In this document: piece by piece, positions 34,538-58,858 of the stretch | Layout: the number at the start of each line of letters is the position of its first letter | Numbering within the stretch: position 1 is the first letter of the stretch | Assembly: GCA_012798265.1 (NCBI GenBank) | Contig: JAAZNM010000003.1 | Span: 1-63,269, forward strand | Origin: Candidatus Roizmanbacteria bacterium | Lineage (GTDB): Bacteria; Patescibacteriota; Microgenomatia; UBA1406; GWC2-37-13 | Length of the DNA: 63,269 bases | Reading direction: 5' to 3' | Notes under the pieces: model-generated | Told to the model about the DNA's origin: nothing | Database searches by the model: none | The model's input: the letters and a program-made list of their open reading frames with translations, nothing else | Position numbers and translations under genes: made by a program

Positions 34538-36652
34538 CTAACGAGCAGCAAAACCTGCATAATCGCCGAAGTTAAGATGTCCTATTTTTTTTGGCGAAAA
34601 ACCAAGGATCTTTGGGACTGTAAAAACCCTCTCCGTAATATAAGGTTTTTCTTTTTGCCAAACGGGCTGAAGCCCGGAGATGAGTACCCTTACGACAACA
34701 AAATCGATATTCGGTAAAGAAAAATTAACCGCAAAAATATCCATATTCTGTTTCTTCAGCAATGAAATACATTTGTTTATGTTGGCTTTTATGTCGGAGT
34801 TTCTGTAATCTTTAATCTCATCAAACCTGACTACCTTTCCCGGCTTAACATAATGTTCCGTATTTTTGTTGAGCCATCTTTTCCCGGCGGCAAATTTTGG
34901 AAAAATCTGGATCGCTTCTGTAACCGTCCTCGATAAGGCGATATCTTTATCCAAATGGGAAGAGACCGAATAGGAATATCCGTTACGATCACCTACCCTT
35001 CCTTTGATAAACATCCCAAAAGTCGGGATATCGTTCGTATTCAGGATATACTTAATCCGATAAAACAGATTCGACCGGTCAAGATCGTCAAGCAAACGTG
35101 TCAATTTTTGGTCTTTTACGCTTGCCAAATCAATATCGGGCATAACTATTTCGTTAAGGTCAGCGATCATATAGATATCCCTTTCCACCAGTTCCAATAT
35201 ACCGTGCAAGACTGCCTCTTCCATACAGTTGCCCGAAGCAAGACCGTTGCTGCCGACATCGGCATAAGACACGAAATCCAAAGGCAGTAGACAGTTAGTG
35301 TTCTGCGTCAACGACCAGGCCTTGATCCACTTAATTTTTTTCAAATCAGAGTAGCCTTCTGTCGGAATACGGAATTTTTCCGGAGGAACGGCAATGCTTT
35401 TTAGCTCTTTATAAGATCCGATAATTATTTTTTTGAAAGGGTCACTTGCGGCATAACTGGCGCAATATCTCTCAATTGCCTCCATGACGGCGCTGTTTCT
35501 GTTTTGGTATAGGCTAAGACCCTTGCCGGCAGTGACCAAATATTGGCCATATCTTGAGGGATCGTTTGAAAAGGCCTTAAAATTATATTGATTGCGAATA
35601 GTGTTTTTATAACGTATTGTTTTTGATATTACGCCGACATGGCTGATATATTTTTTCGCCCTTAACCAAGTGTCTTTTGCATGGACGACCCTTAATCCGT
35701 TTTCAAAAAACAACGCTTTACGATGTTTCAGTTTTATTTTCTCAGACGTAAAATAACACCCAGGACAACATGTCGGATCTTTTATAATATCAATTTTCCT
35801 TATTTTTCCCCTTGCCAGATCAATACTGACTATCTTGTTTTTCAGGGAATTGTCACCGGATAAGAATATGGCTATGACGTTGGCCATATTGACCGCAAAT
35901 AACTTGTATTCTATCTCTGTTGGTTTGGGATCAGGCAGCCTGAAGATGTAATCTTTTTTTTCAATAAAACTGTTTTCTTTTAATCTTTTTCTGTAACAAT
36001 TCAGGCAGGAAGATTTGCCGTCGAACACAAAAGGTCCGATATCGATACGTCTGTTGCCAAAATCAAGATTGTAAAATATCCATTTGGTCTTTGGAAAAAG
36101 ACGGCGGCATCTGTTAAACAAAGCCAATAATTTTGTGCTGATGAAAGGGCTTATTACCAGGTCCGATCTTTTTATGGTCTTTATGGTTTTGCCTATCGAC
36201 GAAGAAGCATCAATCGGAGTTAAATTCTTGTATCCGTGTCCCGTCAGTAAACCGGATATGATTCTGTCTCTTTCCTTCTCCCATAAAAAGGCAATCGACG
36301 GATTCTCTTCGATAGGACATCCTTTGCCTACTCTCTTCCTTAAGACAGGCATTTTGCGTTCCGGATTGGTTCTCTGGTTCAAGAAGCCTTCTTTGTCAAG
36401 CAAATAAGTTATCTCCAATATGTCTTTATCCGAAACCAGAGTCGCTCTGGATATCTTTTTGACGGTATGTTTGCCATCCATTAACCGGACTATGTCACAA
36501 ACCGGTAGATCTTTATTTATGGTAACTGTTTTACCTGTCGGCAGTTGAGTCAATTCCTCTGTTATCTTCGAATACGCCAGACTGAAATTACGGCTTACCG
36601 CTGGCTTAAGGAACAAAAACAAATCGTCTCTTGGCATAAAGTTTTTTTTCAT
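34538..36652 (-). CDS. Fused E1-like/YcaO cyclodehydratase (RiPP azoline synthase)
   Basis: 704 residues. Residues ~45-92 look like a winged-helix leader-binding (RRE) domain. Residues ~110-300 are the E1/ThiF-like partner domain with a zinc site formed by C216/C219 (SCLNC) and C296/C299 (CPGC). Residues ~330-704 are the YcaO domain with ATP motifs NSAVMEAIER (~387-396), EEAVLHGILELVERD (~478-492) and RTVTEAIQ (~575-582). Fused C-D enzymes of this type turn Cys or Ser/Thr of a leader-bearing peptide into azolines. The C terminus (FGDYAGFAAR) lacks the PxPxP end of many such enzymes. It diverges from a radical SAM gene, 31 nt away. Confidence 0.9.
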   Translation of the reverse strand: MKKNFMPRDDLFLFLKPAVSRNFSLAYSKITEELTQLPTGKTVTINKDLPVCDIVRLMDGKHTVKKISRATLVSDKDILEITYLLDKEGFLNQRTNPERKMPVLRKRVGKGCPIEENPSIAFLWEKERDRIISGLLTGHGYKNLTPIDASSSIGKTIKTIKRSDLVISPFISTKLLALFNRCRRLFPKTKWIFYNLDFGNRRIDIGPFVFDGKSSCLNCYRKRLKENSFIEKKDYIFRLPDPKPTEIEYKLFAVNMANVIAIFLSGDNSLKNKIVSIDLARGKIRKIDIIKDPTCCPGCYFTSEKIKLKHRKALFFENGLRVVHAKDTWLRAKKYISHVGVISKTIRYKNTIRNQYNFKAFSNDPSRYGQYLVTAGKGLSLYQNRNSAVMEAIERYCASYAASDPFKKIIIGSYKELKSIAVPPEKFRIPTEGYSDLKKIKWIKAWSLTQNTNCLLPLDFVSYADVGSNGLASGNCMEEAVLHGILELVERDIYMIADLNEIVMPDIDLASVKDQKLTRLLDDLDRSNLFYRIKYILNTNDIPTFGMFIKGRVGDRNGYSYSVSSHLDKDIALSRTVTEAIQIFPKFAAGKRWLNKNTEHYVKPGKVVRFDEIKDYRNSDIKANINKCISLLKKQNMDIFAVNFSLPNIDFVVVRVLISGLQPVWQKEKPYITERVFTVPKILGFSPKKIGHLNFGDYAGFAAR

Positions 36653-36670
36653 ACCGATAGATCCATCTGA

Positions 36671-36676
36671 TATAAT
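36671..36676 (+). promoter_or_regulatory. -10 box of the first SPASM radical SAM gene
   Basis: TATAAT in the 31-nt divergent spacer between the YcaO and radical SAM genes, 7 nt before the ATG at 36684. Transcription from it would start at or next to the start codon. Confidence 0.6.
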
Positions 36677-36683
36677 TTTTACG

Positions 36684-38063
36684 ATGTCTTTGTTACGGAA
36701 TAGTCAGAAAATTGGTCTTTTCGATCATCTTTATTATACAAAGATTAAAAAATTCCAGGTTATCTATAACCCCTATTCTTATAAGAAACCGGCCGTCGTA
36801 GAGATCGGTTTTTTTAACTGGATCAAAAACTTCCTCAAAGGAGAACTTACCGTTAATCAGATAACGGCCAAAAACCAAATTTTCGACAAGAAGCAGATGC
36901 TTGGCTGGTTGGATTACCTTTTCGAACATGATTTATTGAGCGTCGGCGGAGAAAAAAATCACCTGTTTATAAACCCTTTGTCCAATCCGGAAAAAGCTTC
37001 TTTCTGGGTAGATGTCACCAACCAATGCAACTTCCGTTGCTCATACTGCTATATCGACAGAAAAAAGGAGACGATAGACCCGAATAAGTTTAAAGATTTG
37101 TTTGAAAAACTGATCGCTTCGAAGAAGGAATATCCATTTAACGAAATCGTTTTTGTTTTAGCCGGAGGGGAACCACTTCTTTTTTTCGATACCCTTAAGA
37201 ATCTAATCGGGACAATCGAAGCACTACAAAAAAAATATCTGAAAATATTGAAAATACAGACTCTCATTATTACCAACGGCAGTTTGCTAACGGAAGAAAA
37301 GGCAAAATTTTTCCGAAAAAACAAAATAAGGATAGCCATATCCCTTGATGGAATAGAAGAATATAACGACCAAACAAGAAAATTTATCGACGGAAAAGGC
37401 ACTTATAAATACATTTTAAGGGGAATCGATATCGCCAAAAAGTACCGGATACTAAGCAACGTTATCGTAACCGTATCCTCGAAAAATATACTCCACCTTC
37501 CCCGTTTTGTGTCTTTTCTGCTAGCTCAAAAAATTGGTTTTCAACTCCAGTTTTATAAAAAAACCACCCGATTCTGCCTTGATATGCCAATCGTCTTTGA
37601 CAAAAAAACAATCGGCGCTTATTTAAAAGCCATTAAGGTCGTCTACGACTATTATCTGTTAAACCAAAAAACCTACAATCTCCCGATATTCCTTGACAGC
37701 GGCAAAGCTCTTCTGTTTACCAGTGAATATGGATGTGCCGCAGGATACAATTATTTTACCATCACTCAAAACTGCGAACTGAAGGTCTGTCCTGCTTCAG
37801 ATATTAAAGTCGATTTTACAAAAGTACCTGATTTTATTTCTTCCCTTAGGAAAAAAAATAAGGCATTCATTCAATATTCCGTGGACACCCATCCGATCTG
37901 CAAAAAATGTTTATGGAAATATGCCTGTAAAGGCGGATGCAAAATGGAGAACCTTGTAAATGGCTATACTAAAAAAGCGCCCAATATCTGCGCTTTTTAC
38001 AAAAAAATGCTTCCCTATATGATAAAACTTGAGGCAAAAAGCTTGATAGAAAGCCATAAGTAA
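36684..38063 (+). CDS. SPASM radical SAM peptide-modifying enzyme 1
   Basis: 459 residues. Residues ~40-95 form a small winged-helix-like (RRE-like) domain; the radical SAM core begins at CNFRCSYC (C115, C119, C122), with AGGEPL as the SAM-binding GGE motif. The C-terminal SPASM domain has CAAG (C351), VCPAS, HPICKKCLWKYACKGGC and NICAFY, enough Cys for two auxiliary clusters. SPASM enzymes make thioether or C-C bonds in peptides. Paralogue of 39566-40981, with the same N terminus (IGLFDHLYYTK / IGLFDHLYTAS). Confidence 0.92.
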   Translation: MSLLRNSQKIGLFDHLYYTKIKKFQVIYNPYSYKKPAVVEIGFFNWIKNFLKGELTVNQITAKNQIFDKKQMLGWLDYLFEHDLLSVGGEKNHLFINPLSNPEKASFWVDVTNQCNFRCSYCYIDRKKETIDPNKFKDLFEKLIASKKEYPFNEIVFVLAGGEPLLFFDTLKNLIGTIEALQKKYLKILKIQTLIITNGSLLTEEKAKFFRKNKIRIAISLDGIEEYNDQTRKFIDGKGTYKYILRGIDIAKKYRILSNVIVTVSSKNILHLPRFVSFLLAQKIGFQLQFYKKTTRFCLDMPIVFDKKTIGAYLKAIKVVYDYYLLNQKTYNLPIFLDSGKALLFTSEYGCAAGYNYFTITQNCELKVCPASDIKVDFTKVPDFISSLRKKNKAFIQYSVDTHPICKKCLWKYACKGGCKMENLVNGYTKKAPNICAFYKKMLPYMIKLEAKSLIESHK

Positions 38064-38067
38064 TCTA

Positions 38068-38096
38068 TTGACATCGCGCGAGACCTTTCTTAAACT
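38068..38096 (+). promoter_or_regulatory. Promoter of the 163-residue anchored protein
   Basis: TTGACA (38068-38073), 17-nt spacer, TAAACT (38091-38096), then 6 nt to the ATG at 38103. It starts 4 nt after the radical SAM stop codon, so this gene has its own leaderless transcript. Confidence 0.6.
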
Positions 38097-38102
38097 AAGA
38101 AT

Positions 38103-38594
38103 ATGAGACTTATCAACAAAGTCCTTGTTGGGAGTTTTATCCTACTTCTGGCGGTGATCGCTTATGAATTCAAATTATATTATTTGACTCCCGGCGCAAA
38201 AACAAAAGATGCCCGGCTTTATTCATTGAATACGGTCAAAGAACAGTCAAAATTTTTTGATTGGTTATATAACAACAACCTGATCACCAGATCTAAATTT
38301 GAAGTGGACAAAGACGGGCTTCCTCTCATCACCAACGATACCGAAGGATCTATAAAATCTTTAAGCCTCAACAAGAAACAAGAAGGAAACGATGAGGTTC
38401 TTTTAGCGCTTCAAACCAAAAGTGGTCTGGTCAACTTCGTTTTTCCCGCCAATATGCTTGAGTTCTACACCAAAGAAAGAAAGCTTGTCCATATGGATTC
38501 GATGGCAAAAGAAGAAAACGTCATCGTACACGAAGTATTCGGGCTAAATAAAAATACGATCGTTCCTCTTAATATCAAGATCGTGAAAAACTAG
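38103..38594 (+). CDS. Membrane-anchored protein of unknown function in the RiPP locus
   Basis: 163 residues: N-terminal helix (VLVGSFILLLAVIAYEFKLY) as uncleaved anchor, remainder outside the membrane with no Cys. No known domain recognised. It sits between the first radical SAM gene and the precursor gene, convergent to the latter with 5 nt between the stop codons. By position it could help export, immunity or display of the product; that is inference. Confidence 0.75.
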   Translation: MRLINKVLVGSFILLLAVIAYEFKLYYLTPGAKTKDARLYSLNTVKEQSKFFDWLYNNNLITRSKFEVDKDGLPLITNDTEGSIKSLSLNKKQEGNDEVLLALQTKSGLVNFVFPANMLEFYTKERKLVHMDSMAKEENVIVHEVFGLNKNTIVPLNIKIVKN

Positions 38595-38599
38595 CCAAT

Positions 38600-38740
38600 T
38601 CAGGGCCAACAATTTCCGCAGCCGCACGCGTCTTTGCAAGTAGCGTAAACGTTCATAAACTCCATAAAGTCATACCTTTTTTTCAACAAAAAAATTTTTA
38701 TTTTTTTCTGGGTGATCCTGGGAGATTGATACTTTTTCAT
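38600..38740 (-). CDS. Cys-rich RiPP precursor peptide, 46 residues
   Basis: ATG at 38738-38740, TGA at 38600-38602. The leader begins MKKYQSPRIT: Y4-x-x-P7-x-I9 is the YxxPx(L/I) motif known in leaders bound by PqqD-like domains of lasso-peptide and radical SAM systems. A basic, hydrophobic middle (KKIKIFLLKKRYDF) follows, then the C-terminal core TCKDACGCGNCWP with Cys35, 39, 41 and 44. All four Cys are in the last 12 residues. It lies downstream of the HprK-like and second radical SAM genes on the same strand. The precursor role is inferred from motif and context. Confidence 0.85.
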   Translation of the reverse strand: MKKYQSPRITQKKIKIFLLKKRYDFMEFMNVYATCKDACGCGNCWP

Positions 38741-38753
38741 TATTATATTAAAA

Positions 38754-38783
38754 AGGATAGCAGATTTAAAAAATATTTGTCAA
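38754..38783 (-). promoter_or_regulatory. Candidate promoter of the precursor peptide gene
   Basis: Minus strand: TTGACA (38778-38783), 18-nt spacer, TATCCT (38754-38759), then 13 nt to the ATG. A strong -35 here would let the precursor be made in excess over the enzymes encoded upstream. The -10 is weak, so this is a moderate call. Confidence 0.45.
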
Positions 38784-38801
38784 TAATAAACATGGCGTTT
38801 T

Positions 38802-39569
38802 TTATATTTTTTCTTTGGAAAAATACGACTTGATACTTTCGGTACTTTTTTTGGAAAATGACAATCGGAAAAATCTTTTGTTAAGTTTCGCAATAAGCTT
38901 TATTATTTCTTTTTTGTTGTTGTCGAAAGATATCTGGCGATTAAGAATATCGAAATAACGGTCTGCCTCCGTCATATATATTTTTTGTACCGAAAACGAC
39001 ACCGCTTTTTTAAGTAAAAACAGTCCGGCGACAGGATATGGTTTATTGGTTTTTTCATAAAGGTTTTTTTCTGGATAAGGAACCTGATACAGGTAAAATC
39101 TGCCTTTATGAATTTTGATTATAGCCATATCGTCACATAACGGAACAAAATCCTTTTTCAGCATCTTGACTATGGTGGATTTCCCGGCGCCGTTATCGCC
39201 GATAAATATTTGGGCTTTGCCTTTGACAAGGAAAGCCGATGAATGCAAAAATACCAGTTTTTTCCCGTACAGAAAGTTGAAAATAACTGTCTTCAGGAAA
39301 AAGTGGGATTGTAACCTGCCCATGTTGACGGAAGTTATTATTTTATTGGGAGGCAGTTTATGATAAAGACTTATATAAGTATGGTTTTTTATCCTGGTGG
39401 CGCGGAATATATATTGTTTTCTCGCCTCGATCAAAAGATCGGGGTGGAGACACTCATCTGTCAAATATGCCTTATACTTGTCAGTCAGCACCCTTTTTAA
39501 CGGACAGTCTCCTCCTTCAATAGTAATTTGGATGGTATAGTCGACTATTCTGAGGAAAAATCTTGTCAT
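38802..39569 (-). CDS. HPr-kinase-like P-loop protein
   Basis: 255 residues from ATG 39569, which overlaps the stop of the radical SAM gene (ATGA). The C-terminal half has FIGDNGAGKSTIVKML (Walker A, ~124-136) and PLCDDMAII (~143-150), the layout of HprK-like kinases that accompany lasso-peptide and other RiPP genes; some of these phosphorylate the peptide. The N-terminal ~90 residues are unfamiliar. The peptide core here has Thr34 but no Ser, so the substrate is open. Confidence 0.75.
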   Translation of the reverse strand: MTRFFLRIVDYTIQITIEGGDCPLKRVLTDKYKAYLTDECLHPDLLIEARKQYIFRATRIKNHTYISLYHKLPPNKIITSVNMGRLQSHFFLKTVIFNFLYGKKLVFLHSSAFLVKGKAQIFIGDNGAGKSTIVKMLKKDFVPLCDDMAIIKIHKGRFYLYQVPYPEKNLYEKTNKPYPVAGLFLLKKAVSFSVQKIYMTEADRYFDILNRQISFDNNKKEIIKLIAKLNKRFFRLSFSKKSTESIKSYFSKEKI

Positions 39570-40981
39570 GTCTTTGCTAACGAAATGATATTGGTATTGA
39601 TTATCCTTTTTGCCTCTAACTTGATAGCCAGAGGAAGCATCTTTTTGAATATATAGCAACGAGGCGGAATGCTCCGTAACTTGTCGTATTTAAGCATCTC
39701 CAACCTGCATCCTCCTTTGCACAAGTATCTCCATAAACATTTTTTGCAGATCGGATGGGTGTCCACGGAATAATCAGTAAACGGGGCATTTATTTTTTTA
39801 ATATCTCTGATAAAGTCTTCGGTTTTGTCGTAAGGGATTTTGACTTCGGAGGCCGGACATACCTTTATCTGGCAGTCGGGAGTTATCGTAAACTCCATGT
39901 TTCCCGCAGCACATCCCTGTTCGCTTATGAACATAGGCTGATATTTGTCGTTTAAAGGATTGGCCGTCTCGTTTTTTTGATCCATTTCTCCGTACATCCT
40001 GTATACCGTTTTGATGGCTCTTAAGTAACTGGCTGATGTTTTTTCATCGATTTTCACTGGTTTTTCATGACAGTGTTGGTTGACTTCCTTATAGAATTGA
40101 AATTGGAATTTGATTTTTTGTTTCAGAAGATAAGAGGCAAAATCCGGGAGATGTTCAATGTTTTTTGCCGTTATCGTTGCGGTAATGTGGCTTAAAATAT
40201 TATGTTTCCTGGCTATCTCTATTCCTCTTTTGATAAGGGGGTACGTTGGTTTTCTCCCATAGATGAATTTACGGGTAAGATCGTTGTATCTGCCTATACC
40301 GTCAAGTGAAATATTCGTATTTATTTTGTTTTGTTTCAAAAATATGGCTATATCGTCTGTCAGTAATGAAGCATTGGTAATTATTTTTTTCTCTATGGCT
40401 ATTTTGTTTTCCGTTTTTTTTTGGAAAATATCTATCTCGGCAGCGATCTTCTTTAGAGTTGAAAAATACATCAAAGGTTCCCCTCCGGAAAAAATAAAGA
40501 CAAGTTTTGTAAAACGATATCTACGTCTCAGTTTGATTAGTCTGGACAATAGTTTCCGAAACGTATCAGGGTCTATTATTTCTTTTTTCCTGTCGACAAA
40601 ACAGTAAGTGCACTTGAAATTGCATTGGTTTGTGATATCAATCCAAAATACCAACTGTTTTTTGCTTACATTTGGATCGTAATGGAAATAATTTTTTTTG
40701 CCTTCTTCGCTGATCAAGTCATACTTGAACAAGTTGTCAAAAATATCTTTAATGTCATTTTTATTTAACTCGGGGAATCTGTCGGCAAACAAAATAATCG
40801 AGCGTCCGTAGGTTAATTTCTTTCCCAGTATGTCCTTCAACGCCAAATATATATTTTTTGCCAGCACCAGCTGACCCTTGTAGGAAAAAGGGTTATAGAT
40901 TACTTGATAATCGCCTAACGAAGCCGTATATAGATGATCAAAAAGACCGATTTTGTTTTTAAGCTTTTTGTTTAAAACCAT
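39566..40981 (-). CDS. SPASM radical SAM peptide-modifying enzyme 2
   Basis: 471 residues. RRE-like N-terminal region (~45-100), radical SAM cluster CNFKCTYC (C120, C124, C127), FSGGEPLMYF, and SPASM domain with CAAGNMEF, KVCPAS, HPICKKCLWRYLCKGGC and a last Cys in PPRCYIF. Clear paralogue of the plus-strand enzyme at 36684-38063, but diverged enough to suggest a different bond or site. First gene of the minus-strand unit radical SAM, HprK-like, precursor. Confidence 0.92.
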   Translation of the reverse strand: MVLNKKLKNKIGLFDHLYTASLGDYQVIYNPFSYKGQLVLAKNIYLALKDILGKKLTYGRSIILFADRFPELNKNDIKDIFDNLFKYDLISEEGKKNYFHYDPNVSKKQLVFWIDITNQCNFKCTYCFVDRKKEIIDPDTFRKLLSRLIKLRRRYRFTKLVFIFSGGEPLMYFSTLKKIAAEIDIFQKKTENKIAIEKKIITNASLLTDDIAIFLKQNKINTNISLDGIGRYNDLTRKFIYGRKPTYPLIKRGIEIARKHNILSHITATITAKNIEHLPDFASYLLKQKIKFQFQFYKEVNQHCHEKPVKIDEKTSASYLRAIKTVYRMYGEMDQKNETANPLNDKYQPMFISEQGCAAGNMEFTITPDCQIKVCPASEVKIPYDKTEDFIRDIKKINAPFTDYSVDTHPICKKCLWRYLCKGGCRLEMLKYDKLRSIPPRCYIFKKMLPLAIKLEAKRIINTNIISLAKT

Positions 40982-41043
40982 CGGTTTTTCATTATAACCA
41001 ATTTTTTATCTTTGTTTTTGTTATCTGAATATAATTTATTATA

Positions 41044-42558
41044 ATGATTCAGTTATTTGGCTTATCTGAACAAATGAAAAAAAGGGCAATCTTGGTTTAT
41101 ATCTCCACTTACGAAAAAGAGTTGCACCCAGCGATTTTTACCTTAAAGGCCTACGCCCTATTCCATTCGAAAGAAGACCTGACTATAAAAACAAGGGTAA
41201 TCAAACCTGGACGGATTAAGATGATGGCAGGAAAACCTTACGAGGACATATCCGGAAAACAATCCGACTTAATCGTCGACAGCATCTTGAAAGAAAAGCC
41301 TTTATTTGTCGGTTTTTCAACTTACGTATGGAACATTCGCTTAACTTTGAAGATTATCAAACTACTGAAAAAAAAGCAGCCTTCGTTACCGGTTATCGTC
41401 GGAGGTGCCGAAGCTACCTATAACGCGAAAAAACTTATTAATGATTATATAGAGATTGATATAGCCGCCCTTGACGAAGGCGAAGAAACATTTGTTGATT
41501 TGATCAAATACTTTTCCCATCGCAAAAACAACCTCGGGCTGATCAAGGGAATCGTCTTCCGGGAAAATAAAAAAATAGTCGAAACGGAAAAAAGACAACC
41601 GTTGGATCTGAAAAGAATACCCTCTCCATATCTTATGGACTTAATAAAAATAAACAAAAAACAAACCATAACCATGGAGACATCCCGAGGCTGTCCTTTT
41701 AAGTGTGCCTATTGTTCTTATAATATGTTCAGTTATGCCCATCTGCGGTTTTTTCCTTTAACAAACGTAAAAAAAGAGTTCGTCTATATTCTTAAACGTA
41801 AACCGAAGAGAATATATGTGATCGACGATAATTTTAACATCTATGAACCAAGGGCAAAAAAAATATTGTCGACAATAACGCGCCACAATCACAAAACCAT
41901 GATTACCCTGTTTATAAGGGCGGATGTTTGGCCTATCAAAAAAACCCTAGCCGCAAAACTGGCCAATCCCCGTTTTTATCTGGCTATCGGAATACAATCG
42001 CTAAATACGAAAACTCTCGCCGGGGCAAAAAGAATGCACAATACCGATGTTTTGAATAAAAATATTCAGCTCCTTATGGAACAGGGGGCCAATTTAATCC
42101 CTCAATTCATCATCGGCCTTCCGGGAGACAAGTATGATGATATCCTTTCAGCGATAGATTGGGCTTTTTCCGTTAGGCCTTACGACATCATGTTGCAAAC
42201 ATTGAGGATCAATCCGGGAACGGTATATGAAAAGGATGCCAAAAAATTCGGCATAACCTACAAAAAAAACCCTCCTTACACTATTTTCCGGACAAACACC
42301 ATGTCGGAAGGAGAACTAAAAAAGTCGGAAAGGACAGCCCAGACGTTTCAATTCCTTTACAGAAGAATCTCCTATCGGAAAAAGATGTTGGCCTTTTGCA
42401 AAAAAACCAATCTACCGATCTCCGTACTGCTAAAAAAACTTTGCGACCTGAACCCCTATAGCGTAATTTTTTTGCCGAAAAACAAAATTTTGAAAATGAT
42501 TGACTACGAAACCAATCAAATCAAAAATAATTATGACCGACTTCATAAAAAAAAATAG
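41044..42558 (+). CDS. B12-binding-type radical SAM protein
   Basis: 504 residues. N-terminal cobalamin-binding-like Rossmann domain (~1-165; FVGFSTYVWNI, VIVGGAEATYNAK), radical SAM core with SRGCPFKCAYCSYN (C217, C221, C224) and IGIQSLN, then a helical C-terminal domain. B12 radical SAM enzymes methylate unactivated carbons or catalyse epimerisation and ring changes; several act on RiPPs. TATAAT boxes at 41030-41035 and 41040-41045 favour either ATG 41044 or ATG 41074 (MKKRAILVY) as start. Divergent from radical SAM 2; overlaps the next gene by 26 bp. Confidence 0.87.
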   Translation: MIQLFGLSEQMKKRAILVYISTYEKELHPAIFTLKAYALFHSKEDLTIKTRVIKPGRIKMMAGKPYEDISGKQSDLIVDSILKEKPLFVGFSTYVWNIRLTLKIIKLLKKKQPSLPVIVGGAEATYNAKKLINDYIEIDIAALDEGEETFVDLIKYFSHRKNNLGLIKGIVFRENKKIVETEKRQPLDLKRIPSPYLMDLIKINKKQTITMETSRGCPFKCAYCSYNMFSYAHLRFFPLTNVKKEFVYILKRKPKRIYVIDDNFNIYEPRAKKILSTITRHNHKTMITLFIRADVWPIKKTLAAKLANPRFYLAIGIQSLNTKTLAGAKRMHNTDVLNKNIQLLMEQGANLIPQFIIGLPGDKYDDILSAIDWAFSVRPYDIMLQTLRINPGTVYEKDAKKFGITYKKNPPYTIFRTNTMSEGELKKSERTAQTFQFLYRRISYRKKMLAFCKKTNLPISVLLKKLCDLNPYSVIFLPKNKILKMIDYETNQIKNNYDRLHKKK

Positions 42559-43804
42559 ACGAAAAAGATTTTTTGTCAAAGCCGAAGGCAACAGTATGCT
42601 TCCCCTTCTCAAATCAGGGGATATCGTTTATTACGAAAAGATAAAATTCGAGCATATTAAGATTGACGATTTGGTCCTGTTTTATAAAAAAGACCAGTAT
42701 TTTACCCATCGGGTTATCTACAAAACGAAGAAATACCTGATCACCAAGGGTGACAATAACCTTATCAGCGACGGAAAAATTTACCCTGACAAAGTTATGG
42801 CCAGGGTTGTTGACATAAAAAGAAACGGGCAGATATTCAACGTTGAAAACCTGTATTTGATCCAATCGAGTTTTTATATGGCCGAACTGTCAGATCTCTG
42901 TGAAAAATTAACCGACAGAGGGATTGAATATGCGATCATAAAAGGTTTGCCGCTGCATCTTTACTATGAAAAACACCACCCGAGAAGGATATATGCCGAC
43001 TGCGATTTTCTGATAAGGAAGTCACAATTTTCTGATTTTGATCGTCTGCTTAAAGATAAAGGCTTCGTTATGGTCGACGGTGGACTTTTGTTGCCTGTTT
43101 TTGAGCGTATAAAACAGGCTAAAGACGATCTCATTTATACAAAAAAACATGGCCGGTTTGACATAGTCTTGGATGTTCATTTCGAACCGGAGTTCACCAA
43201 TACGAGAATCGGCAACATCGAAGCTTTCTATCCGGGAGAACTACTGAAAAGCTTATCTCAAAAATTTTTATCCTCAAAAAAAAAGATAACCATTAACGAT
43301 AATGATTTTTTTATACTTGACGACGATGTATTAATCATATATCTCCTGCTTCATCTGTTTAATCATGGTTTCAAAGGAACATATAGGATCAATTTTATCG
43401 ACAGGGTTATCAGGAAAAACCGTCTGGGAAAAAACGGGTGGCTTAAGGTATTGGCTTTTATAGAAGAATACCGATTGAATAATTTTGTCGGGCCAGGCTT
43501 TGCCTTATTGAAGAAATACTACCAAACTCCCATACCGGATTTTTTCTTAAAAAAATTGTCAACCCCGCCGGGGTTGTTAAAAACAGTGTCAAAAACTAAC
43601 ATATACATAAATTACCGGGCGCCTGATGAGATACTAAAAAACTCCCTGGGCGAGCGCTTTTGGACTCTTTTCCGGTTCTCTCCACAGCCCCTATGGAAAA
43701 AAATTACGGCCTTTTCCGATATTAAGAGTATTTTAGCCGGCATATTTACTGTCGGAGTAAGAGCATGGTATTACCTAAACTACCGAATGACTAAAAAGAA
43801 ATGA
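42533..43804 (+). CDS. S26-like peptidase domain fused to a nucleotidyltransferase
   Basis: 423 residues from ATG 42533. Residues ~12-95 resemble a signal peptidase/LexA-fold domain: GNSMLPLLKSGDIV (Ser21) and ITKGDNN (Lys72) give the Ser-Lys dyad, and FTHRV fits the strand between them; there is no membrane helix. Residues ~118-423 match the NTP_transf_5 type of nucleotidyltransferase (IKGLPLHLYY, YADCDFLI with Asp156/Asp158, DIVLDVHFEP), which occurs with PqqD and HprK-like proteins in RiPP loci. A leader protease joined to a nucleotidylating enzyme is unusual. Overlaps PqqD by 14 bp tail to tail. Confidence 0.78.
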   Translation: MTDFIKKNRRKRFFVKAEGNSMLPLLKSGDIVYYEKIKFEHIKIDDLVLFYKKDQYFTHRVIYKTKKYLITKGDNNLISDGKIYPDKVMARVVDIKRNGQIFNVENLYLIQSSFYMAELSDLCEKLTDRGIEYAIIKGLPLHLYYEKHHPRRIYADCDFLIRKSQFSDFDRLLKDKGFVMVDGGLLLPVFERIKQAKDDLIYTKKHGRFDIVLDVHFEPEFTNTRIGNIEAFYPGELLKSLSQKFLSSKKKITINDNDFFILDDDVLIIYLLLHLFNHGFKGTYRINFIDRVIRKNRLGKNGWLKVLAFIEEYRLNNFVGPGFALLKKYYQTPIPDFFLKKLSTPPGLLKTVSKTNIYINYRAPDEILKNSLGERFWTLFRFSPQPLWKKITAFSDIKSILAGIFTVGVRAWYYLNYRMTKKK

Positions 43805-44051
43805 GGATTTTTTTTTTGAGCATATCTGCCAAAAGGAGACCATAATCTTTTTTTGCCTTTGTTTCTTTAATCCCATACTCTTTTACCATGGCTTTGATTA
43901 TTTTATCGTCTTCCCATTTGGCCTTGATTTTGTTGAATATGAAAGAGGCGGTTTCGTTAAACGTATAAAGTATAGACTTTTCCCCGTCGAAGATAACCGT
44001 TTTGTCATCAAGTTTCTGGGTAATCAAACCCTTATTGACGCGGTATTTCAT
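43791..44051 (-). CDS. PqqD-like RiPP leader-recognition protein
   Basis: 86 residues from ATG 44051. PqqD fold pattern: beta strands (VIFDGEKSILYTFNETA), helix FIFNKIKAKW, and winged-helix end (IIKAMVKEYGIKETKAKKDYGL). Free-standing PqqD domains hold the leader peptide for radical SAM or lasso enzymes and bind YxxPx(L/I) leaders in lasso systems, as in the precursor at 38600-38740. TATAAT (44058-44063, minus) ends 6 nt before the ATG. Confidence 0.85.
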   Translation of the reverse strand: MKYRVNKGLITQKLDDKTVIFDGEKSILYTFNETASFIFNKIKAKWEDDKIIKAMVKEYGIKETKAKKDYGLLLADMLKKKILISF

Positions 44052-44063
44052 AGCAAAATTATA

Positions 44064-44105
44064 AATCACAAATCACAAATCCACAATTGAAAATCAAGAT
44101 GTTTG
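44064..44105. repeat. Dispersed AT-rich repeat spacer
   Basis: AATCACAAATCACAAATCCA, then ACAATTGAAAATCAAGATG and TTTGTTATTTGGTATTTGTA running into the end of the sugar transferase gene. Nearly the same words recur at 44697-44815, on the other side of that gene, so the sugar transferase is bracketed by similar repeats. Confidence 0.65.
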
Positions 44106-44696
44106 TTATTTGGTATTTGTAATTTTATCTAAAGTCAGTCGAACTATTAACCCTACCGTCATCAAAACTATTTTAAGATCATAAAAAAACGATTTTTTTT
44201 CGACGTACTCCAAATCAAGAGCCATCCATTTGGCAAACGATAAGCTATGGGCTCCGCTGACGATCCAGGATGACGTCATGCCGGGCAGGACGGAAAACCT
44301 TTTATCATATTTTTTTGGGACTTTAGCGGCTTCGTCAATCGGAAGCGGCCGCGGCCCGACAAAGGCCATCTCCCCTTTTATGATGTTGACCAATTGAGGA
44401 ATCTCGTCAATGGCCATATGGGATAAAAATTTACCCACCTTCGTATAACGGGGATCGTGGCGGATCTTAAAAACAGGCCCGTCGGCCTCATTCTGATTTT
44501 TGATTTTGTGCTTTAGGTTTTCGGCATCTTCTACCATCGTCCTTATCTTGTAGATGATAAAGCTTTTCTTGTCTTTGCCGGCCCTTTTTTGCCTGAAGAT
44601 AAACGGACCTTTGGAAGTAAGTTTGACAGCGGCATATAAAACCAATAATAAGGGCAAAAAAAATATGAATATGACTAGGGCAAATAATCTTTCCAT
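44106..44696 (-). CDS. Undecaprenyl-phosphate sugar-1-phosphate transferase
   Basis: 196 residues: one N-terminal membrane helix, then the bacterial sugar transferase domain (GPFIFRQKRAGKDKKSFIIY, KIRTMV, VGKFLSHMAIDEIPQLVNII, GEMAFVGPRPLP). It starts exopolysaccharide repeat units by loading a sugar phosphate on undecaprenyl phosphate. Short form without the usual four-helix N-terminal domain, like PglC. Bracketed by similar dispersed repeats, which might have helped it move. Confidence 0.9.
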   Translation of the reverse strand: MERLFALVIFIFFLPLLLVLYAAVKLTSKGPFIFRQKRAGKDKKSFIIYKIRTMVEDAENLKHKIKNQNEADGPVFKIRHDPRYTKVGKFLSHMAIDEIPQLVNIIKGEMAFVGPRPLPIDEAAKVPKKYDKRFSVLPGMTSSWIVSGAHSLSFAKWMALDLEYVEKKSFFYDLKIVLMTVGLIVRLTLDKITNTK

Positions 44697-44839: not shown

Positions 44840-45679
44840 ATGAAGCTTGGCAAAACCTCCAAAAAAGCTTGGAAGTTCCTTATTAAAAACTACTTTATTG
44901 TAATCTTTATCGCCTGTATCGCTTTTGTCGGAGTCGTCTCTGCCTATAAGATGTTTTTTTCAAAACCAAGTTACGTTTATGTCAAAGTGAAGGTCGGTCA
45001 AGGTCTTTGGTGGGCCAGTACCCAAAAACCGAACATCTGGTTTGTCAACGCCTTAAAAGATATCAAAGAAGAAAAGGATCTGTCAGGCAAACCGACTGTC
45101 AAAGTCCTGAAAATAGAGTACTATCCTTCTATCTACCAAAGCGGGTACTTGGGACAATACGACGTTTATATTACCGCCATGCTCAAAGTGTCCCAGTTGG
45201 GCAAATCGGGCAAATACAATTTCAACCGCTCAACCATCGGCATCGGAGCACCGATTGATTTTGAGTTTTCCAAGGTCCAGTTCAGCGGTACGATCACCGA
45301 ACTAAGCGAGCGGCCCCTTAACGAAAACTATATCGAAAAAACCGTCTATTTGACCAAAAAATACGCTTCCCAGCTTGAGTATCAGGATATTAAAGTTGGA
45401 GACGAGTACTCTAACGGACAAGAGGTGATTTTCAAAATACTTGAAAAATCAGCCGGAGACATAAACGAATTAAATATCATTGACAGAAGCGACTCAGAAA
45501 CCGTCGATCTTTTGTCTGAAAAAAGATTAACTATCTTTGTCAAGGCAACGATAAAAGTCAAAAAAACTGACGGCAAACTTATTTTTGCCGAAGAGCAAAT
45601 GGTCGTTCCCCAAAATAGATTTATCATCTCTACGGAAAACTTCGTTTTTAAAGATTTTTTTGTCTCAAAAATCGAGTAA
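44840..45679 (+). CDS. Single-TM anchored protein (DUF4330-like), paralogue A
   Basis: 279 residues: basic start, one membrane helix (NYFIVIFIACIAFVGVVSAY), then a beta-rich outer domain. It is a paralogue of the protein at 58012-58803: both have YYPS followed by YD(V/F), a segment with VGxxxxxxFxK, and end in KIE. The layout suggests the DUF4330 type, but I am not certain. TATAAT (44828-44833) is 6 nt before the ATG. Eleven nt before the SecA-like gene. Confidence 0.6.
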   Translation: MKLGKTSKKAWKFLIKNYFIVIFIACIAFVGVVSAYKMFFSKPSYVYVKVKVGQGLWWASTQKPNIWFVNALKDIKEEKDLSGKPTVKVLKIEYYPSIYQSGYLGQYDVYITAMLKVSQLGKSGKYNFNRSTIGIGAPIDFEFSKVQFSGTITELSERPLNENYIEKTVYLTKKYASQLEYQDIKVGDEYSNGQEVIFKILEKSAGDINELNIIDRSDSETVDLLSEKRLTIFVKATIKVKKTDGKLIFAEEQMVVPQNRFIISTENFVFKDFFVSKIE

Positions 45680-50885: not shown

Positions 50886-51875
50886 ATGAATATAAATAGA
50901 TGGTTAATTGGACTAATTATTTTATTAGAGGCAATAATAGTAATTTTTTTAAGCACAACTATCATAAAACAAAATAATATTAAAAAAATAATTTCAATAA
51001 ATACTATTAGTAAAAATGAAGTCAAATATAAAAAAAATAACTTATTAAAATATTTTTATGAATTGGAACCAAACACCATTCAAAAAATACAAGTTGACTG
51101 GCTGAACTATAATCCTATTTATTCAATTAATTCTGATGGTCTAAATGAAAGATATAACTACACTATAGAAAAAAAGCCTAATACCTTTAGAATAATTACT
51201 CTAGGAGATTCATTTGTTTTTGGCCAATATTTAAAAACCGTAAAAGAAAACTGGTCGGAAAAACTTGAAGACAAATTAAATTTTGGAAAATACAAATGCA
51301 ATAATTATTCTAATTATGAAGTAATAAATTTAGGAGTATATGGTTACGATATAAAATACTCTGTAGAAAGATTCAAAAATAAGGGAGTGAAATATAATCC
51401 TGATCTTATAATTTTTTTATTAAAAACAGATGATTTTCAAATGATCAACGATTACATTCTACCTCTTGAAGAAGAAATAACAAAAGAAATGAAAATAGAT
51501 AAAAATTCACCAGAATACTATATGAAAGAAGGAGTTATCTATCCAACTTGGAATAAGGCCACAAATCTATTTATAAAAAAATATGGAAAAAAAGATATAC
51601 TAGCTTATCAAAAAAAAACACTAATAGAATTAATAAATATCTATAAAAATAGAATCATTTTTATGAGTTTCCCCGGATTGGAAAAAGAATATAAACAAAT
51701 ATTATTAGATAGCGCTAAAAAACGTAGTAATATTTTTTTCTATGAAACTTACAATATATACGGAGATAAAAATTTAACTTTCCCCGACTATCATCCCAAT
51801 CAAAAAGGTCATCTAATTATAGCTGAAAATATATTTAATTATTTAAATAAAAATAAAATTATTCCATGTAATTAA
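50886..51875 (+). CDS. Membrane-anchored SGNH/GDSL-type esterase-like protein
   Basis: 329 residues. N-terminal membrane helix (WLIGLIILLEAIIVIFLSTT), then an SGNH hydrolase-like domain: ITLGDSFVFGQ (Ser), VINLGVYGYD (Gly block), FLLKTDD, and FPDYHPNQKGHLIIA (DxxH block). Members of this type add or remove acyl groups on exopolysaccharides (AlgX/DltD-like relatives). AT-rich island gene; 17 bp overlap with the convergent glycosyltransferase. Confidence 0.8.
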   Translation: MNINRWLIGLIILLEAIIVIFLSTTIIKQNNIKKIISINTISKNEVKYKKNNLLKYFYELEPNTIQKIQVDWLNYNPIYSINSDGLNERYNYTIEKKPNTFRIITLGDSFVFGQYLKTVKENWSEKLEDKLNFGKYKCNNYSNYEVINLGVYGYDIKYSVERFKNKGVKYNPDLIIFLLKTDDFQMINDYILPLEEEITKEMKIDKNSPEYYMKEGVIYPTWNKATNLFIKKYGKKDILAYQKKTLIELINIYKNRIIFMSFPGLEKEYKQILLDSAKKRSNIFFYETYNIYGDKNLTFPDYHPNQKGHLIIAENIFNYLNKNKIIPCN

Positions 51876-52638
51876 ACTTGCTTATTCTATTAAAAATAAT
51901 TATTAATAAAAATAATAGACCATAAAAAACATATCTTTTGAACAGCCTTTTTGGTTCAAAAAGAAAACGATACAACCACTCAAACCCTATTTTTTGCATC
52001 CATAATGGTGCTTGTTTTTTATATCCCGATATAAAATCAAATGCAGCTCCAACAGGAATGATAATCAATGGTTTTTTGATTAGTTTTGATAATTCATAAC
52101 CAAATAATTCTTGTTTAGGGCTCCCCAAAGAGATAAAAATAATATCCGACTTTAAAGACTCTATTTTTTTTGCGAGATCTGCTAATTCTTTTTTTGATAA
52201 ATTTCTAAATTTTGATTCCTCTTTTCCTATTATTATTAAATCTTTAAATTTATTTTTTAATTTAGCTTCTAAAGAAGATAAAACTATTGATGTATTCCCA
52301 TATAAAAATACTTTGTATCGTTTTTTACTTGATAAAAGACATATTTTTTGCATTAAAATTGGGCCATAAACTCTATCATTTAGTTTTTTATCTTTTCCGT
52401 ATAAAAAAGAGATTGACCATCTTACCCATTGACTATCAGGAACAAGATAATCAAACTTATTAAGGACATCATTAAGATTATTGTCATAATAAGCTCTAAC
52501 TAATGTATGAGAGGCAATCGGAGAAATCAATAACTTTTTTTTTGTAGTAATAGCTTTTTTTATTTCCCCTACTAAAAAGCTATAGTCGCAAGCAGTAATA
52601 TAGTTATTTATAATTTTATGTTTTCCTTTATACATCAT
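51859..52638 (-). CDS. WecG/TagA/CpsF family glycosyltransferase (GT26)
   Basis: 259 residues from ATG 52638. Family landmarks: DRVYGPILMQKI, FLYGNTSIVLSSLEAKLK, IIFISLGSPKQELF, VGAAFDFISGYKKQAPLWMQ and GFEWLYRFLFEPKRL with a basic, amphipathic C terminus for membrane contact. Adds a ManNAc-type sugar to an undecaprenyl-PP-linked intermediate. Start overlaps the upstream epimerase end by 11 bp. AT-rich island gene. Confidence 0.9.
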   Translation of the reverse strand: MMYKGKHKIINNYITACDYSFLVGEIKKAITTKKKLLISPIASHTLVRAYYDNNLNDVLNKFDYLVPDSQWVRWSISFLYGKDKKLNDRVYGPILMQKICLLSSKKRYKVFLYGNTSIVLSSLEAKLKNKFKDLIIIGKEESKFRNLSKKELADLAKKIESLKSDIIFISLGSPKQELFGYELSKLIKKPLIIIPVGAAFDFISGYKKQAPLWMQKIGFEWLYRFLFEPKRLFKRYVFYGLLFLLIIIFNRISKFNYME

Positions 52639-53680
52639 CTTTGAAGATGTCAAAAATAATATCATCAACTGAATATCTTATATTCCAAGATGGATATAGT
52701 TTTTTAAATTTTGAATAATCTGTGATCCACCATTTGTGGTCTCCTGTTCTCGGCTTATTTTTGTATAATATTTTTGGCTTTGTTTTTGATAATTTGCTGA
52801 TTTTTTGAATTATCTCCAATAACGAATGTGCATTATTCCTACCTCCCCCCATATTAAATACTTCTCCTTTTTTTGGATTTTTATAGAATAAATAAAAAGC
52901 ATAAACAAGATCTTTGGCATGAATAATATCTCGTACTTGTTTACCCTTATAGCCAAAAACGATAAATTCCCCATTTTTTTTAAAGTGATTAATCATGTAG
53001 GAAAGAAAGCCTTGTTCCAAGGCTCCATTTTGCCACTTTCCCGCAACTACCCCCAATCTGAAAACCCCTGTTTTTAAACTAAAATATCTCCCATATTCCT
53101 GGACTAATAGATCACCTGACGCTTTGGACACTCCAAAAAAGCTATGTTTAGACTGGTCTATCGAAAACTTTTCCGTTATTCCTTTATAATTAATGTCTAT
53201 TTTATTTAAATCGTATCTATTTTTTGATTCCTTATAATTTAGATTATTAACTAAATCTCCGTATACTTTATTTGTTGAAGTAAAAATAAAAACAGCAGTT
53301 GGACAATATTGTCTAAAAACCTCAAGTAAATTTAATGTTCCTAACGAATTAATTGAATAATCAGTAAAAGGATCTTGGGCTGACCAATCATGTGAAGTTT
53401 GGGCTGCCGTATGAATAATAAGGTCAATTTTACTATATTTTTTAAATAAATCTGAAATACATTTTTTGTTTCTGATATCAAAATCATGATGGATATATTT
53501 TCCTTTGTGTCGTTTACGTAAATATTCTATTTTTTTTTGGCTATTAGTATTTATACTAAGCATTTTTGATCGTAAGTTGTTATCTATTCCCAATACACGA
53601 AACCCTTTATCAAGGAAAAAAACTGTAGATTCAAAGCCTATTAAGCCTAAAGAACCAGTTATTAATACGTTTGATTTCAT
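52628..53680 (-). CDS. NAD-dependent sugar epimerase/dehydratase (SDR)
   Basis: 350 residues, extended SDR. NAD motif ITGSLGLIGFESTVFF (GxxGxxG), HTAAQTSHDW, and RLGVVAGKWQNGALEQGF, which resembles CDP-paratose/CDP-tyvelose 2-epimerases. The YxxxK catalytic motif reads FGVSK, so the Tyr is Phe. If the alignment is right, the usual proton transfer is impaired. Substrate: a nucleotide sugar for the island's polysaccharide. AT-rich. Confidence 0.8.
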   Translation of the reverse strand: MKSNVLITGSLGLIGFESTVFFLDKGFRVLGIDNNLRSKMLSINTNSQKKIEYLRKRHKGKYIHHDFDIRNKKCISDLFKKYSKIDLIIHTAAQTSHDWSAQDPFTDYSINSLGTLNLLEVFRQYCPTAVFIFTSTNKVYGDLVNNLNYKESKNRYDLNKIDINYKGITEKFSIDQSKHSFFGVSKASGDLLVQEYGRYFSLKTGVFRLGVVAGKWQNGALEQGFLSYMINHFKKNGEFIVFGYKGKQVRDIIHAKDLVYAFYLFYKNPKKGEVFNMGGGRNNAHSLLEIIQKISKLSKTKPKILYKNKPRTGDHKWWITDYSKFKKLYPSWNIRYSVDDIIFDIFKDDV

Positions 53681-53682
53681 TT

Positions 53683-54933
53683 TTATATTAATAAACCCCT
53701 TATCCCCCAGAACATCACTTGAAATGAGGCGGGAGAGATAGGATTAAATACTCCATAGATAAAAATTGACCAAAAAGCAACAACATAAGCTTTTTTAAAA
53801 ATTAGATTTGACTTCAAAAGTTTAATATCATTAATAATGAAAAAAAATAAAATAAAAATAAAAATAAATAGACTGATATATCCAGATTCAACAAGAATTG
53901 ATCCAAAAATATTGTGAATGTACTCATCTGTACTTTTTTGAAGCAATATTTGGTTATTGTCAAAAATAACATTATTATTTTTAGATTCTAAATTATCATA
54001 ATAATTTCCTAATCCTACGCCAAGTAAACTAACCCTACCCATTTCCAAAGAATCTTTTAATTGATCCCATCTAAAATCTAGAGATCTTATATCAGTATTT
54101 TCATTTGTTAGTAAAAGTCTGTCCATAATAGAATAACCAGCGTAATGCCGCATAAATTTGTTCGTTGATATGCTCATTATTATAGCGACTAAAATTATTG
54201 AACTTATTTTTTTAAAACCAATTTTTTTAAAAAGTAAGACAGACCCACCCAAACTAAAAAGCAACATTAACACTCTAGTTCTTATATTAGAAAAAAACGA
54301 AAAAAATAAAATTATTATAGAAATACATGAAAGGTTTAAATAACTAAATTGTTTTTTTTCTTGGAAAAAAACAAATAATAAAGGAAGTATTATCTCATCA
54401 TAAGTGTCTGTATATATTTTATTATCATATAATTTAGCTATAACTAGCTTAACATGTTTTTCATAAACAAAAACACTTAGATATTTTATAAAAAAATCCT
54501 GATAGAAAATTATTATAAATTGGTACAAAAAATTAATAGTAATACTTGCTAATAAAACAATAGCAATTTGACGTAAATTATTTTTATAAAAAATAAAAGT
54601 AAAAAAAGCCAATAAAGAAATAAGCACATCTTTATAGCGATTTAAAAAGGCAGATTGGTTTATTGCAACAGATATAGTTAAAGATTGAAATAAAAATAAT
54701 ATAATGATTAAGCCAATCAATCTGTGATCTTTTTTATTAAACAAATTTTGATTTAATAAAAAATGTTTTACTAATTGAAAACAAAAAACTAAAATTAATA
54801 GAATTCTAGCTAATGCTTGAGTTGTAACAAAGGCGCTTTTAAAAGAAGGAATAATATAGAAATTTGGGATTTTAAATAAAAAAACACTTGATAAAAACAA
54901 ATATAAAAAAAGTTTATTTACATTTTTTGACAT
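53683..54933 (-). CDS. O-antigen ligase/polymerase-like membrane protein (island copy)
   Basis: 416 residues from ATG 54933, about 11 membrane segments. The Wzy_C/O-antigen ligase loop contains LLGVGLGNYYDNL and an external segment with EYIHNIFGSILVESG. Paralogue of 60994-62292, with matching N terminus (FKIPNFYIIPSFKSA versus IKLPPFYMLPPLKST) but with AT-rich codons. Joins lipid-linked glycan to an acceptor or polymerises it. Confidence 0.85.
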   Translation of the reverse strand: MSKNVNKLFLYLFLSSVFLFKIPNFYIIPSFKSAFVTTQALARILLILVFCFQLVKHFLLNQNLFNKKDHRLIGLIIILFLFQSLTISVAINQSAFLNRYKDVLISLLAFFTFIFYKNNLRQIAIVLLASITINFLYQFIIIFYQDFFIKYLSVFVYEKHVKLVIAKLYDNKIYTDTYDEIILPLLFVFFQEKKQFSYLNLSCISIIILFFSFFSNIRTRVLMLLFSLGGSVLLFKKIGFKKISSIILVAIIMSISTNKFMRHYAGYSIMDRLLLTNENTDIRSLDFRWDQLKDSLEMGRVSLLGVGLGNYYDNLESKNNNVIFDNNQILLQKSTDEYIHNIFGSILVESGYISLFIFIFILFFFIINDIKLLKSNLIFKKAYVVAFWSIFIYGVFNPISPASFQVMFWGIRGLLI

Positions 54934-54951
54934 AACTAATTTTAACAGACT

Positions 54952-58011: not shown

Positions 58012-58803
58012 TCATTCTATCTTCCCAACGACAAACCACTCAAAGACCGATCCTTTTGTAATAAATTCAACTATTTTATTACGTTCAACAATGGTATTCT
58101 TACCATAAATTAAGTCCCCATCGTCTTTTAGGAGCTTCATCCTCACTTTAATAACAATATGCTTTAGATTCTCGCTTCTACTATTGTAGTAGTTAATATT
58201 TCCCGCATAGTGTTCTATATCCATCAAGGTTTTGTCTAATATCTCAATCGTCTCATCTTCTCCGTCAAAATAATAGTCTCCGATCCTGATGTTTTCATAA
58301 AGATTGAAATTATTTACCGAGTTACCCTCATACCTAAAAAAGTAAACGATTTTATCCTCGTATTTGTCATCAAAAGGTTCTCCTTTTACGTCAAATATTT
58401 CTCCATAAGTTAGTATTTTTGGGAAGTTAAGACTTAAGGTCGACCCGACCTTAACTTCTGTCTTGTTGAAACTATAACTGAACTGTTTCAGGTTGTCGTT
58501 TTTCAGTTTAAGGATCAATGCGAAATCATAGGTATTGCTTTTGTTTATCGGCTCGCTAGGATAATATCTGGCCGACAAAACCTCAACTACGGTGTTTCCC
58601 ATAAAATCCTTTATCTTGTCTCCTTTTTTTATCAGTTTGACGTATGAGAGATCGGGCTTCTGTCTTTCTTTGTTGACCATTACCAGGGCTTTTGCATAAA
58701 AATATTTTGGCTTGGCGGTTATTTTAAAAATCGAGACCAAGACTACGAAGGAAAAAACTATGATAAAACCGGCCAGGATATATCTTCGAAGATGGCTTTT
58801 CAT
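58012..58803 (-). CDS. Single-TM anchored protein (DUF4330-like), paralogue B
   Basis: 263 residues from ATG 58803: basic start (KSHLRRY), membrane helix (ILAGFIIVFSFVVLVSIF), outer domain with ARYYPSEPINKSNTYDFALI and KTEVKVGSTLSLNFPK, end VVGKIE. Paralogue of 44840-45679. The frame extends further upstream but through a divergent gene's start, so it was cut here. Role unknown; in both places it stands next to surface-polysaccharide or envelope genes. Confidence 0.6.
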   Translation of the reverse strand: MKSHLRRYILAGFIIVFSFVVLVSIFKITAKPKYFYAKALVMVNKERQKPDLSYVKLIKKGDKIKDFMGNTVVEVLSARYYPSEPINKSNTYDFALILKLKNDNLKQFSYSFNKTEVKVGSTLSLNFPKILTYGEIFDVKGEPFDDKYEDKIVYFFRYEGNSVNNFNLYENIRIGDYYFDGEDETIEILDKTLMDIEHYAGNINYYNSRSENLKHIVIKVRMKLLKDDGDLIYGKNTIVERNKIVEFITKGSVFEWFVVGKIE

Positions 58804-58858
58804 TATATTGTTAAAGTATATTATATAATCTAGACAACTTAGCGTGTAGTTATCACAT

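Follow-up and report, generated by a model that had tools for sequence, protein, structure and literature searches.

Closest described systems

Hybrid clusters that pair YcaO with radical S-adenosylmethionine (SAM) enzymes are known in Bacteroidales (e.g., P. gulae BGC8, ItfB type) (PMC10352776). Some lasso peptides are phosphorylated or glycosylated by HprK-like kinases and NTP_transf_5-type nucleotidyltransferases, and in lasso clusters the nucleotidyltransferase is sometimes fused to the B2 protease (PMC8498205). Lasso leaders carry a YxxPxL motif that is read by B1 (PMC10368454). Here, we describe a locus at positions 34538–44069 of a 63,269-nucleotide contig (JAAZNM010000003.1, assembly GCA_012798265.1; hereafter the window) from a Candidatus Roizmanbacteria bacterium. 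We read it as a hybrid pathway for a ribosomally synthesized and post-translationally modified peptide (RiPP), with the 46-residue product of 38600–38740 (reverse strand) as the precursor. This reading, in which all of the enzymes would act on that peptide at the residues and in the order suggested below, has in our estimate a probability of roughly 70%. Such a hybrid is of a known kind; the modular family in which it sits is apparently undescribed. The first-pass annotation of the window knew of no described family with exactly this set, and in the open-access literature we likewise found no description of this enzyme set, of its leader family, or of the Hint- or S74-tailed precursors reported below.

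The Bacteroidales clusters resemble the locus in that YcaO and radical SAM enzymes surround one small precursor, but they have a GG leader, a PCAT exporter, and one radical SAM enzyme, and HprK and NTP_transf_5 proteins are not described for them (PMC10352776). Clusters for phosphorylated or glycosylated lasso peptides (paeninodin, pseudomycoidin, BsfA type) share with it a PqqD-like B1, a YxxPx[LI] leader (YxxPxL in lasso leaders, YxxPxI in the window), an HprK-like kinase, and NTP_transf_5. Some also have a protease–nucleotidyltransferase fusion, which is paralleled in the window by the fusion of an S26-like protease with a nucleotidyltransferase (S26/NT) (PMC8498205). However, the window locus lacks Asn synthetase and a B2-type protease, has an S26-like domain instead, and includes YcaO and radical SAM genes. 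The SynChlorMet cassette (ScmA–ScmF) also keeps HprK-like (ScmC), PqqD-like (ScmD), and radical SAM genes together, but the named cassette has no YcaO, and this identification was rejected, with window matches far below the cut-offs (ScmC, 19.1 of 125; ScmD, 16.2 of 100). Graspetides, found in the Candidate Phyla Radiation, show that RiPP precursors occur in Patescibacteria but are ATP-grasp based (PMC8939145); no protein scanned in the locus matched an ATP-grasp family.

A conserved candidate precursor linked to the clustered enzymes

The host genome (954,489 bp in eight contigs, 99% complete, with the window as contig 3) belongs to the same family as two metagenome-assembled genomes (MAGs) from Lac Pavin that are labelled Ca. 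Roizmanbacteria (G658 and G659). The 46-residue peptide comprises a leader, KKYQSPRITQKKIKIFLL, with the lasso-like YxxPxI motif (consensus KYxxPKIxxKKIK), and a core of about MEFMNVYATCKDACGCGNCWP. The precursors of the three genomes align across the 46 residues at 72% identity (window, MKKYQSPRITQKKIKIFLLKKRYDFMEFMNVYATCKDACGCGNCWP; the two MAGs, ...TCRDGGGCNVCWP and ...TCRDLGGYNVCWP). Among the proteins compared between the window genome and the two MAGs, the precursor is the most conserved; identities to the relatives are 56% and 53% for the two SPASM enzymes (to their G659 counterparts), 45% for the B12 radical SAM enzyme, and 42% for YcaO. Between G658 and G659, codon differences in the precursor gene are 16 synonymous and three nonsynonymous (dN 0.037, dS 1.5). 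The first-pass annotation had stressed four Cys in 10 residues, which is true of the window sequence but is not a trait of the family: only C35 and C44 are invariant, the latter within a C-terminal CWP (TCKDACGCGNCWP in the window, against the two MAG sequences above). Where the window and G659 have Cys41, the G658 core has Tyr, and the first type of B12 radical SAM gene is undetected in G658; with three sequences and a genome that is 84% complete, this coincidence is only a hint.

We screened 71 small open reading frames (ORFs) in the region, and only the 46-residue gene and pqqD have conserved, free-standing counterparts in the relatives; the remaining matches fall over larger conserved genes. 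The 46-residue ORF is thus not a chance one, and, because it is the only such gene besides pqqD, YcaO and the radical SAM enzymes probably act on a common substrate. No gap between adjacent cluster genes exceeds 62 nt, so there is no space in the cluster for a second precursor gene.

Neighborhood comparison bears out the proposed linkage, in that one precursor accompanies YcaO, both SPASM enzymes, a B12 radical SAM enzyme, HprK, and PqqD in the two other genomes of the family. Loss of the precursor or of its linkage in relatives, named at first pass as an outcome that would count against the pathway, is not what we found, and neither is the other such outcome, a division of the YcaO and radical SAM parts between unrelated systems. 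In G659, contig 92 (L017; JAPLYQ010000083.1) lacks the sugar transferase but otherwise has the cluster genes, with a second B12 radical SAM gene in addition. In G658, the genes lie on two contigs (L018, JAPLYR010000037.1, and L019), neither of which shows the S26/NT gene or the first B12 type. The YcaO gene of G658 is split, but by an N-filled assembly gap, and we rejected a frameshift. As in other RiPP loci, a small conserved precursor gene is clustered with tailoring enzymes.

Predicted modifying enzymes

Every gene listed at first pass is present (fused E1-like/YcaO, two SPASM, B12 radical SAM, HprK-like, S26/NT, PqqD, and the 46-residue gene), plus one overlooked component, a protein of 163 residues with a transmembrane (TM) anchor (Table 1). 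Two starts needed correction: HprK begins at 39569, not 39659, and overlaps the SPASM2 stop by 4 nt, and S26/NT most likely begins at 42533, not 42500.

The nearest solved structures to the YcaO protein are the cyanobactin cyclodehydratases LynD, TruD, and MusD, which have in common with it the YcaO domain and the Glu motifs of the ATP site (EAIER and ELVER, intact in the window). They also have an E1-like region, for which the window protein scores just short of the TIGR03882 cut-off (36.8 against 36.9 bits). However, alignment covers residues 265–681 only, the leader differs, and the partners are radical SAM enzymes. A C-terminal PxPxP is a mark of azoline-forming YcaO proteins. It is absent from the YcaO of the window and of both relatives, the sole P-x-P-x-P string in the window protein being internal (residue 240), so formation of azoles from Cys, as proposed at first pass, is not assured. 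Some other YcaO enzymes modify housekeeping proteins; a ribosomal or McrA type was set aside here because all three known members of the subfamily sit in this cluster beside SPASM1. As a marker of the class or phylum the protein was also rejected, having weak homologues only (E 4e-21 and 8e-16). AlphaFold2 models were too poor for use (mean pLDDT 31 for YcaO, 48 for the 163-residue protein). A second, distantly related YcaO gene (558 residues) occurs on contig 4 of the same genome (L025 1588–3264).

Both SPASM proteins have CX3CX2C and seven conserved SPASM Cys; their nearest solved relatives are a sulfatase maturase and 5wgg. With the maturases of ranthipeptides, sactipeptides, and cyclophanes they share this full Cys set and an adjacent small Cys-containing precursor, but they are two paralogs with YcaO in the same locus and score far under the cut-offs of named equivalogs (PapB, DynA, ScfB, CcpM, and others; best 121 of 340 bits). 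The third radical SAM enzyme has the B12-binding layout of the C-methylases CysS and TokK, whose substrates are small molecules, whereas a peptide substrate is our inference for the window enzyme.

The HprK-like protein has the H...GxxGxGKS...DD signature; its matches to ScmC and HprK_rel_A are weak, and Pfam HPr kinase gives none. The counterpart in G659 (L017 8781–9350) is about 68 residues shorter C-terminally than that of G658, although the match still covers the P-loop and DD. The C-terminal Ser of lasso kinase substrates is absent from the three precursors, which end in CWP; Thr34, conserved in all three, is a candidate phosphorylation residue. Another HprK, SPASM, and membrane-protein locus in the window's genome (L024 7168–10164, contig 5) has no recognized leader-family precursor. 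The best curated (NCBIfam) matches of PqqD are lasso B1 proteins; the match to the best solved structure, TfuB1, is weak (E 0.009). The Ser-His-Asp motifs of the S26-like domain are intact.

On these likenesses, PqqD, as a lasso B1-type RiPP recognition element (RRE), and RRE-like N-terminal regions of the YcaO and SPASM enzymes would bind the leader. The LynD-like YcaO would modify the core, most simply at Thr34/Cys35 or Cys44, giving an azoline or another YcaO product. The two SPASM enzymes would form thioether or C–C links, which may involve Cys35, Cys44, Tyr32, or Trp45, and the B12 enzyme may C-methylate the core, by analogy with CysS and TokK. The HprK-like protein and S26/NT fusion probably phosphorylate or glycosylate the peptide, as in lasso clusters, and the S26 Ser-His-Asp site probably removes the leader.

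A leader family in the class Microgenomatia

Searching with a profile of the precursor gives weak matches in further genomes of the family. The first-pass annotation considered such loci unusual in reduced genomes, but they are not isolated oddities, given HprK-like homologues in 43 of 373 Microgenomatia genomes; in a phylum-wide draw, all seven genomes with an HprK-like match belong to the window's own class. We read 49 loci around HprK genes and found the 163-residue type of protein in 33, PqqD in 27, S26/NT in 26, a leader peptide in 20, YcaO and the sugar transferase in 11 each, and SPASM in eight (thresholds were permissive for the 163-residue type and the leader, and the first ten loci were picked by other matches). 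A hidden Markov model (HMM) of the leader found about 24 candidate precursors, of which 20 fall in the 247 kb that lie within 2.5 kb of HprK genes and four in the other 543 kb; it had no match in 349 kb of control loci. The cores of these candidates are mostly Cys-rich, and they are accompanied by YcaO, SPASM, both, or neither.

YcaO and SPASM occur together in five loci, those of the window, G659, G658, G121 (L021), and G668 (L023), the last two also with leader-family precursors. The G121 locus (L021 1–14299) combines YcaO, SPASM, HprK, and PqqD with a nitroreductase, three radical SAM genes of shorter length, and a leader-family peptide whose last residues are LNCTY, and adjoins the same penicillin-binding protein (PBP) and 279-residue protein genes as the window locus.

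Five candidates have C-terminal domains. In three it is Hint/intein (PF14890/PF07591; L020 1785–2324, L091 9567–10124, L107 7392–7946), with a late HN (HNQ in L107) and then a short tail; judged from sequence, these are possible self-cleaving RiPP precursors. In two it is Peptidase_S74, the chaperone of endosialidase (L023 2431–2874, L098 10837–11331), a domain that in phage tail proteins cleaves itself.

It is about an even bet that Microgenomatia have a modular RiPP platform, in which a lasso-like leader (KYxxPKIxxKKIKxNLF) would be read by a common set of PqqD, HprK, protease–nucleotidyltransferase, and membrane proteins. YcaO, SPASM, B12 radical SAM, nitroreductase, or lasso-type cyclase modules would be exchanged, in some genomes at a single position next to PBP and the 279-residue protein, and the C-terminal Hint or Peptidase_S74 domains of several precursors could by themselves cleave the core at its C-terminus or activate it there. 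The window locus would be among the most enzyme-rich, combining YcaO and radical chemistry on a single 46-mer.

Gene inventory and surroundings

Table 1. Genes of the locus and its downstream border (positions in the window)
Feature	Position	Strand	Evidence
E1-like/YcaO fusion, LynD/TruD-like, 704 aa	34538–36652	-	PF02624 E 2e-59; TIGR03882 36.8 bits (cut-off 36.9); two CxxC pairs; EAIER, ELVER; nearest PDB MusD, LynD, TruD; no C-terminal PxPxP
SPASM radical SAM enzyme 1 (SPASM1), 459 aa	36684–38063	+	PF04055; CNFRCSYC; seven SPASM Cys
TM-anchored 163-aa protein	38103–38594	+	Family alignment A4, conserved Glu22; adjoins precursor in many wider-family loci
46-aa RiPP precursor (candidate)	38600–38740	-	dN/dS about 0.02 between G658 and G659; leader HMM family
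HprK-like P-loop protein, 255 aa	38802–39569	-	LHSS, GDNGAGKS, DD; family alignment A6
SPASM radical SAM enzyme 2 (SPASM2), 471 aa	39566–40981	-	PF04055; CNFKCTYC; SPASM Cys
B12-binding radical SAM enzyme, 504 aa	41044–42558	+	PF02310 + PF04055; CPFKCAYC intact; nearest PDB CysS, TokK
S26-like protease fused to NTP_transf_5 nucleotidyltransferase (S26/NT)	42533–43804	+	TIGR02228 53.5 bits (cut-off 51.85); PF14907 E 6e-18; GNSMLP, HRV, GDNN
PqqD-like stand-alone RRE, 92 aa	43791–44069	-	PF05402 E 9e-10; NCBIfam lasso PqqD best; best PDB TfuB1
Polyprenyl-phosphate sugar transferase, flanking, cluster membership uncertain	44106–44696	-	PF02397; near HprK in 11/49 loci
279-aa membrane protein, cluster border, probably polysaccharide-locus protein	44840–45679	+	Kept beside PqqD + S26/NT in relatives; paralogue in window

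The cluster is flanked by a PBP gene upstream and by the sugar transferase and the 279-residue membrane protein downstream. A paralogue of the latter (58012–59049, 86 bits) lies beside a UDP-glucose dehydrogenase-like gene, which suggests that the 279-residue protein belongs to polysaccharide loci. A low-GC (23%–27%) stretch at 50886–55971, in which glycosyltransferase-, epimerase-, and polymerase-like genes were read by eye, lies next to the locus and is probably an island for surface polysaccharide synthesis. Scanning for promoters and terminators gave no decisive result (40 promoter-like sites, with 31.5 expected); one site, TTGACA-18-TATCCT with TG, is immediately upstream of the precursor gene.

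Weighing the alternatives

A single multi-enzyme RiPP pathway is the best reading of the observed gene content, intact motifs, conservation, linkage, and leader family, because there is one candidate precursor, the genes are tightly packed, their linkage is conserved, and the precursor is under selection. Several points weigh against it. The chemistry on the peptide is inferred, no modifying enzyme of the cluster reaches the curated equivalog cut-off of any named RiPP maturase, and YcaO lacks the C-terminal PxPxP. No transporter or exporter was recognized in the locus, and the HprK of G659 is shortened at the C-terminus, to 189 residues. The full hybrid set is found in three genomes (window, G659, and G658), two of them from one lake and one genus, although the scan of the genome collection used two short peptide patterns and possibly missed more distant hybrids. 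Finally, loci with YcaO and no SPASM, and the converse, exist in the class, so the modules can work apart. The last point, the position of YcaO at the cluster edge, and the housekeeping roles of other YcaO enzymes would fit two independent systems side by side, with SPASM, HprK, and PqqD maturing the 46-residue peptide while YcaO (perhaps with the B12 enzyme) modifies a peptide or protein encoded elsewhere. We consider this improbable, given the constant placement of the YcaO subfamily beside SPASM1, the absence of a second precursor ORF or of room for one, and the co-occurrence of YcaO and SPASM with leader-family precursors in G121 and G668.

It is also possible, though we doubt it, that the locus makes no secreted natural product and instead yields a cofactor derived from the peptide, or a modified peptide retained at the cell surface, with the nucleotidyltransferase and the sugar transferase as the tie to the neighboring polysaccharide genes. 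The missing transporter, the membrane anchor of the 163-residue protein, the adjacent sugar transferase and polysaccharide genes, and three sets of HprK, PqqD, S26/NT, and sugar transferase in which no precursor was recognized (L116–L118) all suit this idea; yet the variable, often Cys-rich cores resemble natural-product RiPPs more than a fixed cofactor, and the sugar transferase is near HprK in only 11 of 49 loci. Much less probable still is a degenerate or derived lasso locus, with PqqD, kinase, and nucleotidyltransferase left over and the YcaO and radical SAM genes as decoration. The lasso B1 affinity of PqqD, the YxxPxI leader, and HprK with NTP_transf_5, as in pseudomycoidin-type clusters (PMC8498205, PMC10368454), point that way, as does the occurrence, in several other Microgenomatia genomes, of Asn synthetase genes no more than about 12 kb from HprK. 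The window locus itself has no Asn synthetase (the genome has its PF00733 matches on contigs 2 and 5, none on the window contig), and none of the ten proteins scanned has a Pfam match to the B2 transglutaminase-like peptidase.

Implications

The usual picture of Patescibacteria is one of little biosynthetic capacity. That a 0.95-Mb genome devotes at least six enzymes to a single peptide of 46 residues, as the single-pathway reading has it, suggests a function worth keeping, perhaps in host contact or surface chemistry. The locus offers a test case for YcaO and SPASM enzymes on one core, and the shared leader is a simple handle for finding such peptides across the class.

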